From Polytrichum commune (Eukaryota > Streptophyta > Polytrichopsida > Polytrichales > Polytrichaceae): a stretch of DNA of 64,000 nucleotides. The DNA lies in the NCBI GenBank assembly GCA_950295325.1, contig OX485804.1, positions 2,356,001-2,420,000 on the forward strand, given 5' to 3'. This document shows, in pieces, positions 6,751 to 53,092 of the stretch (position 1 is its first letter; each line of letters begins with the position of its first letter). The notes under the pieces were generated by a model, which was not told the origin of the DNA, did not search any database, and worked only from the letters and a program-made list of their open reading frames with translations. The position numbers were made by a program, and so were the translations under genes.

Positions 6751-7340
6751 CGCATGGCATGCACCATAGACTTTCTTCCTCGTAGACATTTTTTGGCCGT
6801 TAGATGGGATCGCAAATTGTCCCATCCAATTAGAATTTGAGATTGTTATTTAAATTGGAGTTGAGACATAATAGTTATAAGAGATCAAAGTGAAGTTTTT
6901 TTTGGAGCTTTAAAAGCTATCACATATGCCGTTTAAAATGTGTTAATCGTTAGACCTACAAATGATGTCCTTATGTGGAGCACATAGTTCAATTTCATTG
7001 CAGCACACATTTTTTTGGTGTATGTTTCTAATCATAAGCTTTACCATATAACCCTCAACTATAATACAAACATGCATGAGCCAAGTGACTTTCCCAAGCA
7101 TAACTATAAGGACATCTACAATTATGGAGCCCCAAAATATCTACCCTCAATTTATTCAGTCTTTGAATACAACACTTTATTGCATGTTGCATCTAACCTC
7201 CAAAGGTCATAAGTATGTGTGCCTATTGTGGTCACTTCCAACTCCACGTACTAATATGACCGTCACCATGGGAAGGGCACTCTTCTTTGAGAGTCATAAA
7301 CGTGTACGCGTGCCTTAGGGAATCTCCACTCGTGGCGGTA
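6751..7340. other. Intergenic, no supported gene
   Basis: AT-rich sequence between element R2 and the 84-bp array. Short frames here share no recognisable domain. Part of it near 6940-7050 weakly resembles R-type wording ('tttttttggtgtatgttt'). Confidence 0.45.
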
Positions 7341-7996
7341 ACTTGGACCCCAAACCCAAGTCTACGCTCTTGCAAATTCAAGAGGCTCTAGTGTGAAGGG
7401 GACAAAACCTAACTCACAGAGCTAACTTGGGCCTCAACCCCAAGTCTACGCTCTTGCGAATTCAAGAGGCTCTAGTGTGAAGGGGACAAAACCTAACTCA
7501 CGGAGCTAACTTGGGCCTCAACCCCAAGTCTATGCTCTTGCGAATTCAAGAGGCTCTCGTGTGAAGGGGACAAAACCTAACTCACGGAGCTAACTTGGGC
7601 CTCAACCCCAAGTCTACGCCCTTGCAAATTCAAGAGGCTCTGGTGTGAAGGGGACAAAACCTAACTCACGGAGCTAACTTGGGCCTCAACCCCAAGTCTA
7701 CGCCCTTGCGAATTCAAGAGGCTCTGGTGTGAAGGGGACAAAACCTAACTCACGGAGCTAACTTGGGCCTCAACCCCAAGTCTACGCCCTTGCGAATTCA
7801 AGAGGCTCTGGTGTGAAGGGGACAAAACCTAACTCACGGAGCTAACTTGGGCCTCAACCCCAAGTCTACGCCCTTGCGAATTCGAGAGGCTCTAGTGTGA
7901 AGGGGACAAAACCTAACTCACGGAGCTAACTTGGGCCTCAACCCCAAGTCTACGCTCTTGCGAATTCGAGAGACTCTAGTGTGAAGGGGACAAACC
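7341..7996. repeat. 84-bp minisatellite, about eight copies
   Basis: TTGCRAATTC recurs at 7370, 7454, 7538, 7622, 7706, 7790, 7874 and 7958, exactly 84 bp apart. Units differ by only a few substitutions, such as CTCTTG/CCCTTG and TCTAGTG/TCTGGTG. Most contain GAATTC. Each holds two inverted repeats: ACTTGGG with CCCAAGT around 7 bases, and CTCTTG with CAAGAG around CGAATT. Although 84 is divisible by three, all six frames are stopped in the consensus unit, so it is not a repetitive protein. No similar unit occurs elsewhere in the window. Confidence 0.95.
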
Positions 7997-8540
7997 TAAG
8001 GTGAGCTAAATTTCGACGCCAGTTTGGGTGTTTTGTCTGCAAACCAAACTGCTCTACCTTAACTTGAGATCTAAACCCCTTCTCTCTGCTCGCACTGTCT
8101 CTCTCCGTCCCTGCAGCAAGTCATGTCCACTCACCATTCATGAGCTTCATAGTGCGTGCGGCCATCATCTAAACTAACTCCACTCCCCGATTCTAATGCG
8201 GCCGGGACTCCACTCACTCACCGCCCGAAGCTGCTTTGCCAAGGGGTTGTTCATTACTACTCCGGGAACTAGGGGAACTGCTTGTCAGGTGTACCTGAGG
8301 AATTGGTCCCCAGTGCCCCTGAACATCACAAGTCACCTCCTCACCTCCTCCTTCATAATAATAACTGTGGTGGAATTTCCTGATGCCCACCGGTTCAGTT
8401 ACTAACGTGCGATGGTGGAAGGATTGAATAATTTTGGGCTGCCAGGGTCCTAATCAAGCAACTGCTTTCACCATATATTTTCAGTTAGGAAGCCCACCAA
8501 TCCCAGTTACTGACGCTGTCACCGCCCCTGGATTAGCATC
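7997..8540. other. Intergenic, no supported gene
   Basis: No coding signal. The stretch near 8437-8525 (CCCAGTTACTGACGCTGTCACC) recurs in diverged form near 9391-9475 (CCCAGTCACTGACACCACCC). This could be an old direct duplication flanking element R3 and its surroundings. Confidence 0.4.
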
Positions 8541-35507: not shown

Positions 35508-35886
35508 TATAGAGGGGAGGCGCCCATAACCGATCACTGAAGAGATTATGCACCAAAATGTTTTTAAATAAACATAATGCGGTGCAAATTTTTCCTATGT
35601 AGGGAGATAAAAATCAAGAGAACTACATTTTTTTTGGTAATTTTATTGTTTAAATTGAAATTTTGAGGCCAAAAGTCGGCTTGAACATATTTCCAATGTC
35701 TGGAGTGTGTCATAACCACACATTTTAACTAATCATTCCTCCTAAGTTTAGCACTTAACACTAGAACATGTGTGATGGCACTATTGGTTCCAACCTTATC
35801 AAAATTTAGTCCTAGCTTGATCGAAATTCATATGCCCTATAGATTGCCAATGGGGTTTCAATTGAGAATAGGCACCTCTACCATAG
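35508..35886 (+). mobile_element. Family B element, copy B2
   Basis: The 379-bp copy starts TATAGAGGGGAGGCGCCCAT and ends AATAGGCACCTCTACCATAG, so both inverted ends are present. The interior follows B1. It is followed after about 32 bp by B3 in the opposite direction. Confidence 0.75.
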
Positions 35887-35918
35887 ATGCCTCAACATTA
35901 GGCCCGCTTAATTCACCT

Positions 35919-36287
35919 TATAGTGGAACAACCTATTCCAGACCAGGTTCCCATCGACAATTTATAGGGTAGCGCAATATCGATCCGATTGGGATTGAAT
36001 TTCGATTGGGTCAAAACCAATAGTGTCATGACACATGTCTTGGTTTTAAGTGCTAAAGTGAGGAGGAATGAGTGGTTGTGGCATACTCTAGACATTGGTA
36101 ATATGTGCGGGCCAACTTTTGGCTTTAAAAATCACAATAATTTCAATTCAAGGAATAAAATTACTGAAAAATTGCAGTCCTCCTTATTTCTATATTCCTA
36201 CATGGAAAAACATTTGCATTACCTTACACTTCTTCAAATTTGGCACAGAATCTCTCAAGTGGTCGGTTATGGACACCTCTACTCTAG
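35919..36287 (-). mobile_element. Family B element, copy B3
   Basis: The 369-bp copy is in reverse orientation, with ends TATAGTGGAACAACCTATTC and GGACACCTCTACTCTAG. Interior text 'cattggtaatatgtgcgggc' and 'ctaaagtgaggaggaatgag' is the complement of the B interior. With B2 it makes an inverted pair of about 780 bp. Confidence 0.75.
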
Positions 36288-41697: not shown

Positions 41698-43697
41698 ATA
41701 AGTCGTTAATGTGCTAATGGTGTGATGCCATCAATAACAAGTAATGGTTGCGAGATCATCCATAGTGCCATCTTGGTTGGGAAAGGGACGGTAAGCAATA
41801 GTGCACAAAATCCATCGTATGTACGGACATTTGGTGCAATTCTAGAAACGGAAGCAAGATTTGCTACTAGGGAGTTTCCACAACTTGTTTCGTGTTCTTA
41901 TGTGCAAGTGAATGAAGTTGCCTCAACACTTGGGCATACTAGGAGAGTGTGTACCTTGGTTCATAATTGCCACCGAGAGCCCCACATGTTTTCTCTAAAT
42001 TTAAAAGAGAAACCATGATACAAGAATAGATAGATGCACGTCTTGTTCGGTTTTGTTTCAATTTGATGTAAAATAAAATTTAAATAAACTTTCTGAAGCA
42101 TAGAAGGTCATCAAGACTTGGAGGAAGCAAGTTCAACCATCTTTAGAAGTGTGGAAACACCCCGAACCAATCATGTTCCAAAAATTGACATTCAAGCTCA
42201 TTGTGAGAGACATTCATCATGAACGAATACCACCTCTAGAACAGAAATTCAAATTCTCACAACAGTGTATATCATTCATTCATTCATTCATTCATATATA
42301 CATACACACACACATACATACATAATATTATTGAGGGTTTTCATTCATCCCATCATCCATAATTTAAGGATACTAGGAGTTTCAATAGTTACCCCAACTT
42401 GGCATTTCCATCTTTTTGATTGTTGAATCTTCGAAACAAAGTTTGAGAGAAAGATAAAATTTCTCCCAATTTTTCATAATGGACTTGATTTTTACATACA
42501 CATGGTTGAGCATGAAAACATGTTGATGATAGGTGGGTTGAAATGCCCTAAACAACAAGGTGGTATAAAAGTTCCAAGTTCATTGAGAGGCACCCGGTAG
42601 TAATGAAGGGTTAAATTTGTGATCACATGCTCTGCATTAGGATCATAGACAAAATAAACTCAATGGCAACATGTTCAAAATTTTAACATGGGTGATCACA
42701 AGCTCGATGATTATTTTATTTCATTTCATTTTATTAATGCAAGCTCCTCAATGCCAATATTGAGGAGGATGAGGAATCGGATAAGCACCTCACATGTCAA
42801 TCGCAAGGGCCATTGACAATAAAAATCCACTAGTGGTTGGGTTTTCCTATTCAAAAAAAAGTAAAAGTAAAAAGCCAAAAGTTGTCTCCATTTTTTTTTA
42901 TTGAAAAGAAGGAATAGTGTTGACTAGTGGATTAGTCTATGTACTAAGGACGCTAGAGTTCCAAATACGTACACAAATCCCCTTCAAAGGTGGATACCAA
43001 AAAAATCAACATACACATTATTCATATAGAAAAACAATACTTTTCAAAATTAGGTCCAAATTGTTGACTAGTTTGCCATAGAAGACATATATGTTAAGAA
43101 GGTTATTCATTGGAGCTCCGAAAGCAATTTGATCTATCAAAAGTAGATCAAATTCATTACGGAAAAATGTTTCGGGACTCTTTTATGCAAAGCCTATAAA
43201 AATATTTCCTACAACAAAACAATGATAACACCTCATGTACATTAGAATGCATTTTAAGAATGTATGTGGCATATAATGCAAAATAAAAAATAAAATAAAA
43301 TGGTTGACCAAGATCTTTCATGTGGTTGCTAAGTCATTTTTGGAAGTTACCGAGTCCAAGTACACCACTTATCGAATGGCAAGGATGGACGAGCAACGTG
43401 GATGGAGAATAGCATGAACCACATCACAAAAGCTATGTGCTGAAAATTAGAGTGGATGGAAAGTGAAACCTTGATGGATGTTGTTGACACTTATTCAAGA
43501 TTCTATTGCCATTAAAACATCACTAATCGCATAGAAAAAGTGATCCTAAAGTTGGACATTATATGACTTAGATTACAACGACTCGAATCGAGTTTGTACG
43601 GGGATTTTTTATTTTTATTTTTAAAAAGGGTAAATTATTCAGTATACTTCACATTACCTTTGCTCAACATTGAAGGTAACTACGGACTCTTTGAATC
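41698..43697. other. Intergenic, no supported gene
   Basis: Two kb with no gene. The 98-codon plus-strand frame at 41722-42018 has no recognisable motif. Near 42272-42325 an ATTC / ATAC / AC simple-repeat cluster occurs. The rest is AT-rich with A runs. Confidence 0.45.
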
Positions 43698-43759
43698 TAA
43701 GGTGGAGATGTCTAATTCGGCTACTATGCTTAGTTGGACATCTATATTTGAGTGATATG

Positions 43760-44340
43760 GATGGAAGCATGGTAAAGTGGATAGTCTCATGATCTTATCT
43801 TGTGTTCAAGTGAAGGTGATTCAAAACTATACACTAACTTTGAATTTTTATGGAAAATAAAATAAAAATCATGAACATTCAAAAAACCTATTGGCTTACA
43901 AAGTCAAGTGATTTATGATGACAAAAAGAAATTTCGAGAAAAATCTACATATTTAAAAAGACGGGTGCAAGTGGTGTGCAAGTAGGTCATATTCAACAAG
44001 TAATTGTCTAAAATTTGTTTAAAATATGATAAACGTGATGGTTTTCTACAAATTTTTGTGATGACAACCTCGAGTATATAATGAGTCCAAGAAATATGAA
44101 GGGAAAAAAAATCCTACTTCAAAAAAATCAAGGTTGTGAAATTTACGTTCAAATTAGATTCAATCATGTGCTTTTCAACATCACTTTTAATAATTAGTTT
44201 TGAAGATCTCGACATGGAAGGTCATCATGAGGAAAACGAATCCAACTTTGCTACTACCTTTAGGCCTTTGACTAGAAGAAAAAAAATATGGCTTTAGTAT
44301 ACTAGAGCACTATTTTGGTCCACTTTACCATGCTTGCACC
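43760..44340. mobile_element. Family K element, copy K1, inside R7
   Basis: GGAAGCATGGTAAAGTGG at 43763 faces CCACTTTACCATGCTTGCAC at 44320-44339; 15 bp are exact (AGCATGGTAAAGTGG). The interior has 'agtgaaggtgattcaaaact' shared with 26.5 kb. At about 580 bp, with no protein. The insertion point is defined by the break in R7, but no clear target duplication was seen. Confidence 0.6.
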
Positions 44341-44534
44341 TGTGTGTGATTGAGTGTGGTTCCAAGAACAAATACCACAAACACATTTGATCTAAAAGGA
44401 TCGGACTTTGAGCAAAAAAACATGACTACCCATTCTAGATTCAATGGTCAACGTATTTGGGAAAACCTAACTAACACAATTTAATAAACACAAGATTCTT
44501 CACTTTGATAATAAATAAGATATTCATATGAGCT

Positions 44535-44832
44535 CAATGTCTAGGAATATTTTTGGGCATAATCGGCCAAGATCCTAGTGTTTCCAAGTCCAACAAGTAC
44601 ATGTTGACATCTTTTGGTTTTTCTTTATTGATTTGACGTAAATACTTTAAATTCGTCCAAAATGATTGACAACTTCCCTAGAGTCTTGGACTTCAATCAA
44701 CCCTAAACCCTAAACCCTTGAGGCCCAAGACCCTAAACCTAACTCCAAACCCTAGGGGTTGAATTTGAGAAGTAGGGTTTAGAGTTAGGTTTAGAGTTCC
44801 TGTAGCTAGTGTTTGGTTCTCCCCATTCATTG
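44535..44832 (+). mobile_element. Family D hAT-like MITE, copy D3, inside R7
   Basis: The 298-bp element starts CAATG and ends CATTG. It is bounded on each side by the identical octamer TATGAGCT (44527-44534 and 44833-44840). An 8-bp duplication with CARTG ends is the hAT signature. The interior follows D1 and D2 ('TTTGGGCATAATCGG') but carries an extra block of telomere-like text and an inverted repeat (44701-44796). It is younger than R7. Confidence 0.85.
44701..44796. repeat. Telomere-like CCCTAAA units and hairpin inside D3
   Basis: CCCTAAACCCTAAACCC at 44701-44717 is two units of the plant telomere repeat plus a partial one. From 44731 CCCTAAACCTAACTCCAAAC(CCTA) faces TAGGGTTTAGAGTTAGGTTT(AGAG) at 44773-44796, 22 of 24 positions matching. 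D1 and D2 lack this block. Confidence 0.8.
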
Positions 44833-44903
44833 TATGAGCTCTAAAATTTATGAGAAAAATGGCTTTGGCCTCGATTTGGATTTGCTGATCATCTCGTACT
44901 AAA

Positions 44904-45297
44904 GTAGAAAAACGGAAAATGAGGACAATAAGTTGATTCGGCCATAAAGAGAGGCTTTAAAATTTTATGCAATATTTTAAGAGATGGATTAGAGGAAATG
45001 AGGAATGCAAGTTGTTTCATAATTTCATTCCGTGTAAATAATTAGTTACATGTTCCCAAGAAAGACTCTATTTGTACAATAGAATCTTTTTAATTTGGGC
45101 ATCAAAATATCATACTCTGCATACAAATGCACACAAAATGGCTACCTCAATGGTACCTAAAAGTGATCCTAAGTGGTGTGAAACATGACCTTTCTAGCCA
45201 ATCACTACATCCTTTCCAAGCCGCCACTTTACAATCAACCATTTTAGGTTCACACAAGAATCATCATACTCTTAGTCAAGTACACCAATACATTTGA
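44904..45297. other. Intergenic, no supported gene
   Basis: AT-rich. No frame or repeat boundary recognised. Confidence 0.4.
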
Positions 45298-45599
45298 AGC
45301 ACCTATTCCCAATCAGGACCTCATCAGGAACATATAGGGTGCCATAATTTCGCTAAAGTTGGGACTGGCTTTTGATCATGCTAGAACCAATAGTGATATA
45401 ACATATTGTCCCTAGTTTTGATACTAAAGTGAGGAGGATTGAATGGTTACGGTAGACTCTAGACATTGGTAACATGTTGGGACCAACTTTTGACTTCAAA
45501 ACTTTTGACTTAAAGAATAAAGTTACCAAAAAATTTGCAGTTCTCCAAGTCTGGCGCGGAATCCTCTGAAGTGATCGATTATGGGCGCATGTAATCTAG
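45298..45599 (-). mobile_element. Family B element, copy B4 (internally shortened)
   Basis: In reverse orientation it starts GCACCTATTCCCAATCAGGA and ends GATTATGGGCGCATGTAATC. It holds 'tagtgatataacatattgtc' and 'attggtaacatg' as the B complement. The 302-bp length against 370-406 bp indicates a loss near the middle. Confidence 0.65.
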
Positions 45600-45927
45600 T
45601 GGTCATCTACCCATTTCTATTTGTCCACCTTAATCCCGTGTTTCATACCCTAGGAGTTTTGGGCTATTGGGGGAAAGGGGGGGGGGGGAGAGTAACCATT
45701 TTAAGACCCATCTAACCTCAATGTGGTCCCAAGTAAGAACACATATTATAACACGGAGGTTGTCATCTGACGGCCCACACTGCAAGCAGCATCCCATCAC
45801 CTGGCCCGTCTTTTCACAAATGGCTTTCTCAGTGATGAAACTTATTAACTTGCGATGATGATGATGATAATGATCATAATAATTGCCTAGTGGTTTTTTT
45901 CCCGTACTGGTTGAAAACTTACACTGA

Positions 45928-45963
<36 letters not shown>
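45928..45963. repeat. (TC)n then (AT)n microsatellite
   Basis: TC units run from 45928 to 45954 and pass directly into AT units to about 45963. They precede a T-rich stretch ending TCCTCCTGCAG at 46009. Confidence 0.9.
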
Positions 45964-46009
45964 GTTTATTTTTTGTTTCCTTATTTTTGTTTATTTTTCC
46001 TCCTGCAGG

Positions 46010-46124
46010 CAAGTCCCTTTTTTGGAACTAACCGGATCTGCGTCAACGCTACAGTGGAGTCGTGTCCTCACAGATACGTGCCAATAGATTGTGATGTTTC
46101 TGTGTTTGTGCTTTATGTATAAGC
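46010..46124 (+). other. Possible terminal exon after a strong 3' splice site
   Basis: A T-rich run ending TCCTCCTGCAG/G (46009/46010) is a good plant acceptor. The next 114 bases read open for 37 residues (start ASPFFGTNRICVN, end SVFVLYV) before TAA. No matching upstream exon was found and the peptide is not recognised. It may be chance. Confidence 0.2.
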
Positions 46125-46344
46125 AAACCAAATACAACGTACGGCTTTCCCGAAAGAAAGAAAGAAATAAACTAAAACTATTTCAATTAACTTCCGGCAA
46201 ATATGCTCTGTTGTAACATGCTAGGCATTTGTGATGACTGAGGTCAAGGCATCCATAGTCGACTAGGTCCATTTAACCGCTTACTGGGGTCATGTACTAC
46301 CAGCATGGATGAAGCCTTTTTTCTTTTTTTTTAGGAGAACGAAG

Positions 46345-52489: not shown

Positions 52490-53092
52490 GGGCCAGTTCA
52501 CACACATGACTGAAAGCCCGTGACTATTGCATTCTAAAATCTCTCATTGGTTGAAAAGGTTGAGACCGTCCAAGTTCACTTCACACTAGACGGCGAAGGC
52601 CTAAAGGCCCAAAGATGCTATCACCGATGAAAAACCTACTTGAATTCCTACATGACAGACTGTACATAATGTTTCATGCGATGCCAGAATGTGCGTCAAG
52701 GCCACCTCCAAGAGATAGGTGTGACGCAAATTCCGGCAACCCACGCTATGGCCTTTGGATGAGAAACCAATAGCCATGACTAAAAGCCCGTGATTATTGC
52801 ATTCTAAAATCTCTCATTGGTCGAAAAGGTTGAGACCATCCAAGTTCACTTCACACTAGACAGCGAAGGCCTAAAGACCCAAAGATGTTATCACCGATGA
52901 AAAACCTACTTGAATTCCTACATGACAGACTATTAATAACATTTCATGCGATGCCGGAATGTGCGTCAAGGCCACCTCCAAGAGATAGGTGCGACACAAA
53001 TTCCGACAACCCATGCTATGGCCTTTGGATGAGAGACCAATAGCCCTCACAACTACGTTGTCGCGGCCCTTGGCTTGGGGTGTGAAGTGGCC
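52490..53092 (+). mobile_element. Family C element, copy C3, with an inner 270-bp duplication
   Basis: It starts GGGCCAGTTCACACACATGA and ends with the reverse complement of GGCCACTTCACACC. Inside, GACTGAAAGCCCGTGACTAT at 52508 recurs at 52778 as GACTAAAAGCCCGTGATTAT, exactly 270 bp apart, and the following 240 bp stay very similar. The copy is thus a longer, recently duplicated form. It encodes no transposase. Confidence 0.75.

Follow-up and report, generated by a model that had tools for sequence, protein, structure and literature searches.

Nested MITEs are an ordinary and well-known part of plant DNA, and several described systems can be set beside the one reported here. In carrot, DcSto2 or Tourist-like MITEs are reported to be nested inside DcSto1 elements, where the duplications are TA and TTA (PMC3695323). 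A second article describes 8-bp target duplications and short TIRs for hAT elements, 4-bp duplications and variable TIRs for Sola, which seems not to be common in flowering plants, and duplications of 4-6 bp with TG...CA ends for Ginger (PMC10741241). TA duplications are given for Tc1/mariner elements and Stowaway MITEs (PMC10741241, PMC3695323).

The nest analyzed here is found in Polytrichum commune (GCA_950295325.1), whose genome of 408 Mb in 64 contigs was searched. With 58 matches to the chlorophyll a/b-binding family, the genome is that of a photosynthetic organism; these matches, its size, and its TE content point to a plant. The window, meaning the whole stretch of DNA that was analyzed, is 64 kb long and covers 2356001-2420000 of the 70.3-Mb contig OX485804.1; positions below are counted within it. 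An R-family MITE, R7, is interrupted by three inserts (K1, D3, and X1), and X1 in turn contains Y1, so the nest has five elements and two nesting levels. Like the carrot DcSto1 elements as described, R7 is apparently a small TA-target MITE into which further MITEs have inserted, every one of them at a target duplication of its own. It differs in that four inserts from four families are present in one host at two nesting levels, and in the sequence of its ends. Two tandem arrays were also seen in the window, one at 7339-7999 (84-bp unit, 7.9 copies, 97% matches) and one at 52505-53045 (270-bp unit, 2.0 copies, 93% matches).

All five elements look like non-coding MITEs, since they are short, have inverted ends, and are multi-copy. 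The consensus sequences of fetched copies range from 226 to 615 bp in the five families, and all have inverted ends. The copies used for comparison were fetched from this genome, and some lie inside the window; searches with a query from each of the five families scored the best 40 of 813-2870 candidates. The longest stop-to-stop frame within 43700-45718 is 87 codons, and a 111-codon frame at 45630-45965 extends from the last R piece into the flank. The window had no matches in Rfam, and no function is evident for the nest.

The host element R7

R7 is a whole R-family MITE on the forward strand (43700..45718), with about 395 bp of R left once the inserts and second target copies are removed. 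The R consensus, for which 27 relatives of the middle piece were used, is 374 bp long and has the ends AGGTAGA...TCTACCT. Four pieces of R7 can be recognized, all in forward orientation. The first (43700..43758) has at its end the left target copy of K1, ATAT (43755-43758), and the second (44342..44534) begins with the right copy, GTGT (44342-44345), and ends in TATGAGCT (44527-44534). The third (44833..44901) begins with a second TATGAGCT (44833-44840) and ends in TA (44900-44901). The fourth (45633..45718) is the 3' end of R7; it is preceded by TA at 45631-45632 and contains a G tract that is absent from the consensus. A TA also lies to the left of R7 (43698..43699), while its counterpart on the right (45719-45720) reads CA. 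Without the second target copies, the parts that match the consensus are 43700-43758, 44346-44534, 44841-44901, and 45633-45718, in that order. When joined they align to the consensus with 84.4% identity over 371 sites and a score of 456, compared with a maximum of 55 in 200 shuffles. Taken together, the four pieces are nearly complete relative to the R consensus.

The extent of R7 differs from that given in the sequence-only reading, in which R carried two insertions and ended at 44903. Both of those insertions, K1 and D3, are present, but X1 and Y1 had been missed, so that two of the four inserts had been found. The R 3' end restarts at 45631, which is 728 bp beyond the proposed end. Consensus positions 306-341 are found at 45631-45666 and positions 351-373 at 45691-45714. 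The tail (45633-45718) aligns with a score of 75.0, which none of 2000 shuffles reached (maximum 15.5). The same reading had three pieces of R lining up consecutively with another copy in the window, R6. The pieces are indeed in order and at about the places proposed, but R6 is a poor match for them, and of the left piece no more than the initial 22 bp can be aligned with it in one block. R6 belongs to a different R subfamily from the one whose consensus R7 matches well. R matches account for 2937 bp of the window in total.

Junctions and families of the inserts

K1 is 583 bp long (43759..44341, forward strand), with limits set by comparison with the termini of 29 further K copies. The family ends are GGGTGCAAGCAYGGTAAAGTGGAC, and their outer bases have diverged in K1. 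The inverted ends of K1 had been described as exact and 15 bp long; they are exact, but the length is 17 bp (43765-43781 and 44319-44335). Correcting the element ends to 43759 and 44341 exposed a putative 4-bp target duplication that the earlier description lacked. The flanks are ATAT on the left and GTGT on the right, while the R consensus reads GTAT at this place. Across 47 R copies the site is GTAT in 31, GTGT in 3, and ATAT in 2. The two target copies of K1 agree at only two of four bases, which counts against a duplication, but one transition in each copy of the consensus GTAT would explain the mismatch.

D3 is a 298-bp hAT-like MITE (44535..44832, forward strand) with the ends CAATG...CATTG, and it is flanked by a perfect TATGAGCT at 44527-44534 and 44833-44840, exactly as had been read from the sequence. 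At the corresponding site of the 47 R copies, TATGAGCT is the commonest 8-mer (exact in 21), and the rest are near variants. In the D family an 8-bp duplication is exact in four of nine readable copies (0.39 expected) and present with at most one mismatch in six of nine; the remaining 20 of the 29 copies were unreadable and were dropped. The family ends are CAGTG/CATTG. With 8-bp duplications and CA...TG ends, the D family fits hAT and is probably a hAT-like group. A difference from the hAT comparison is that D3 carries a telomere-like segment of 103 bp with inverted arms (44697..44799, no strand assigned), which replaces positions 164-193 (30 bp) of the D consensus. It consists of CCCTAAA repeats followed by their inverted counterparts and is not found in the consensus. 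A genome search with 44697-44799, by a procedure that passes over simple repeats and highly frequent words, matched only its own locus.

X1 is a TA-flanked MITE (44902..45630, forward strand) inserted in R7, and it in turn contains Y1. The X consensus is 438 bp and has the ends AGGTAGA...TCTACCT. The left part of X1 matches the X family, and its right end resumes after Y1 at 45599..45630 in the same orientation (score 28.0, compared with at most 15.0 in 2000 shuffles). X1 has TA on both sides, and R reads GTAC-TA-AT at this place; TA is present at the site in 37 of the 47 R copies. Elsewhere in the genome, another X element lies inside R at a different TA (L111), and a Y copy lies in R next to GTACTAAT, which by eye is nearly the place where X1 entered R7 (L145).

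Y1 is a 306-bp MITE of the Y family inside X1 (45291..45596, forward strand), with TA at 45289-45290 and 45597-45598. The family ends are TAGTAGAGGCGCC...GGCGCCTCTACTC, and the X consensus at this place reads CAG-TA-GTGG. Inspected by eye, 15 of 20 other X copies run on from this TA to the X end, and five (L112, L115, L116, L123, and L125) have other sequence there. In the longer stretches (L131-L135), L132 has a palindromic insert of about 200 bp, after which the X end resumes, and in L131, L134, and L135 the X end was not seen in the 420 bp inspected. The CAG-TA-GTGG site may be a hot spot, or the mark of an X-based composite subfamily or of a longer X form. Y copies also occur near one another. 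Two lie in opposite orientation about 50 bp apart at 35517-36284, and several fetched Y loci have inverted or direct Y pairs. An interpretation of Y as a long foldback or tandem repeat was rejected on alignment, which resolved units some 365 bp long, each bounded by its own inverted ends.

R, X, and Y lie at TA, which may be a likeness to Tc1/mariner elements and Stowaway MITEs. The Stowaway TIR begins with CTCCCTCC. The consensus ends of R and X (AGGTAGA...) and of Y (TAGTAGAGG...) differ from this, and the three families were not assigned to Stowaway. Flanking TA on both sides was found in 8 of 18 R copies (6.5 expected), three of five X copies (3.0 expected), and two of six Y copies (2.0 expected). 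A TA rule for these families would be weak from the copies alone, because the TA may belong to the inverted ends, and it is suggested mainly by the empty sites of X in R and of Y in X. Mutator was also considered for R. With the element ends as set, none of the 18 readable R copies has a duplication of 8-10 bp with at most one mismatch. A single R copy, L071, has the 9 bases AACACCCAG on both sides beyond the TA.

Order of insertion and origin of the nest

R7 was in place before K1, D3, and X1, and X1 was in place before Y1. R is older than K1 and D3 because both interrupt it at target duplications and because uninterrupted R copies are common. The K site is uninterrupted in 45 of 47 paralogous R copies, the D site in all 47, and the X site in all 46 of the 47 that cover it, although these copies are the best matches of contiguous queries and are biased towards uninterrupted ones. 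The flanks of D3 correspond to an empty R site rather than to unrelated sequence, and the search for R copies lacking the insertions, suggested with the sequence-only reading, was answered by these paralogs. The order that had been proposed, R oldest and then K and D, holds for R, but the nesting sets none of K, D, and X before another. Divergence adds no order either, since the 95% intervals of all five elements overlap (K1 0.120-0.192, D3 0.107-0.224, for example). The K2P distances to the consensus are 0.177 for R7, 0.176 for X1, 0.163 for D3, 0.154 for K1, and 0.199 for Y1. Y1 is therefore not less diverged than its host X1, with overlapping intervals. The copies in the window fall in or beyond the upper part of the family distances (K1 0.154 compared with 0.044-0.131, Y1 0.199 compared with 0.117-0.186). 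The distances of the other copies run low, since these copies were chosen as best matches to sequence from the window and also went into the consensus of their family. With about 7e-9 changes per site per year, the distances would mean some 20-30 million years, or less if methylated repeats mutate faster.

Serial insertion into R7 is almost certainly the origin of the nest, with K1, D3, and X1 entering at separate sites and Y1 then entering X1. R7, a non-autonomous MITE, would have inserted at a TA. Later K1, D3, and X1 would have entered R7 by cut-and-paste integration and produced the duplications typical of their families (4 bp for K1, 8 bp for D3, and TA for X1), and Y1 would then have entered X1 at a TA. 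All five were presumably moved by transposases encoded elsewhere, from autonomous relatives acting on the element ends. Point mutation and small indels would account for the decay that followed. Points against this account are the mismatched target copies of K1, whose variants each occur in a few other R copies, the CA to the right of R7, the weak TA rule, the divergence of Y1 relative to X1, and the bias of the R copies towards uninterrupted ones.

The suggestion that the R pieces are separate partial copies that became adjacent by chance takes some encouragement from how common R is in the window, but the odds of it are vanishingly small. The four pieces are collinear, on the same strand, contiguous in the consensus, and bounded by target duplications, and the sites with exact TATGAGCT and TA junctions are single-copy in other R elements. 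It is also very improbable that R7 and its inserts were duplicated or transposed as one composite unit, the insertions having taken place elsewhere. The five X copies with foreign sequence at the TA of Y1 indicate that X-based composites may exist. However, a query with 43400-45100 gave only one spanning match among the best 40 of 7286 candidates scored, and this was the locus itself. Each of the remaining 45 of 46 rows covers a single element, with an overhang of up to about 20 bp in some. In addition, no piece of the flanks (43100-43697 and 45721-46320) longer than about 130 bp has a match elsewhere.

No preference of K or D for R was seen at the loci compared. R density within 150 bp of K is 0.003, compared with 0.026 farther away (29 loci), and within 150 bp of D it is 0.030, compared with 0.036 (29 loci). 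Y density is 0.017 near D and 0.001 far from it, with a single locus (L056) contributing 150 of those bases. K density near K is 0.032 compared with 0.004, which is due to one broken K (L024).

The K family and its 4-bp duplication

K is the one less ordinary family in the nest. The element is about 615 bp long, is non-coding, and has the ends GGGTGC...GCACCC. A 24-base K end has 460 exact matches in the genome (240 forward and 220 reverse), while a reversed-pattern control has none. Of 29 copies, 16 could be read at both ends, and the other 13 were dropped. An exact 4-bp duplication is found in 11 of the 16, whereas shuffled pairs give an expectation of 1.2. No copy of the 16 has an exact duplication of 5 to 12 bp, and one has an exact duplication of 3 bp.

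A duplication of this length does not fit any of the five superfamilies to which MITEs of plants are usually assigned. Mutator elements have a target duplication of about 9 bp, and CACTA elements have CACTA ends and a 3-bp duplication. K does not show these features: with the element ends as set, none of the 16 copies has a duplication of 8-10 bp with at most one mismatch, the ends differ from CACTA, and a 3-bp duplication is found in 1 of 16 copies compared with 11 of 16 at 4 bp. Ginger requires TG...CA termini, which K does not have. By duplication length alone the nearest superfamily is Sola, in which K is a candidate member; a difference is that K is a non-coding element. No description of the K family was found in the open literature on plant MITEs with 4-bp duplications, or with the end strings, among the matches listed.

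The chances are about even that K belongs after all to one of the usual plant superfamilies, such as Mutator or CACTA, and has an atypical 4-bp duplication, rather than to a separate one such as Sola. A superfamily call from duplication length alone is weak, and no transposase-bearing K was found. One locus, L129 (C1:63429300-63432480), has 2759 bp between two perfect inverted K ends, with no frame above 79 codons. No other inverted pair of K ends so far apart and otherwise unpaired was noticed among the matches listed, of the 460, and the locus may be a K copy that a further insertion has made longer. Set against membership in a usual superfamily are the exact 4-bp duplications in 11 of 16 copies, with none exact at 5 bp or more, and ends that are not those of CACTA. 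Tentatively, and at somewhat less than even chances, K may instead be a MITE family with a few hundred copies, from a superfamily with 4-bp duplications that lies outside the usual five and is either Sola-like or undescribed.

Within a single 2-kb stretch, the nest allows several insertions that involve five repeat families to be placed in order relative to one another. It also shows that a host element can restart far past the insert at which its end seems to lie. The K family is one lead that deserves the attention of specialists. Should K prove to be a Sola-type MITE, a superfamily that is said to be uncommon in flowering plants would have an abundant example in it.
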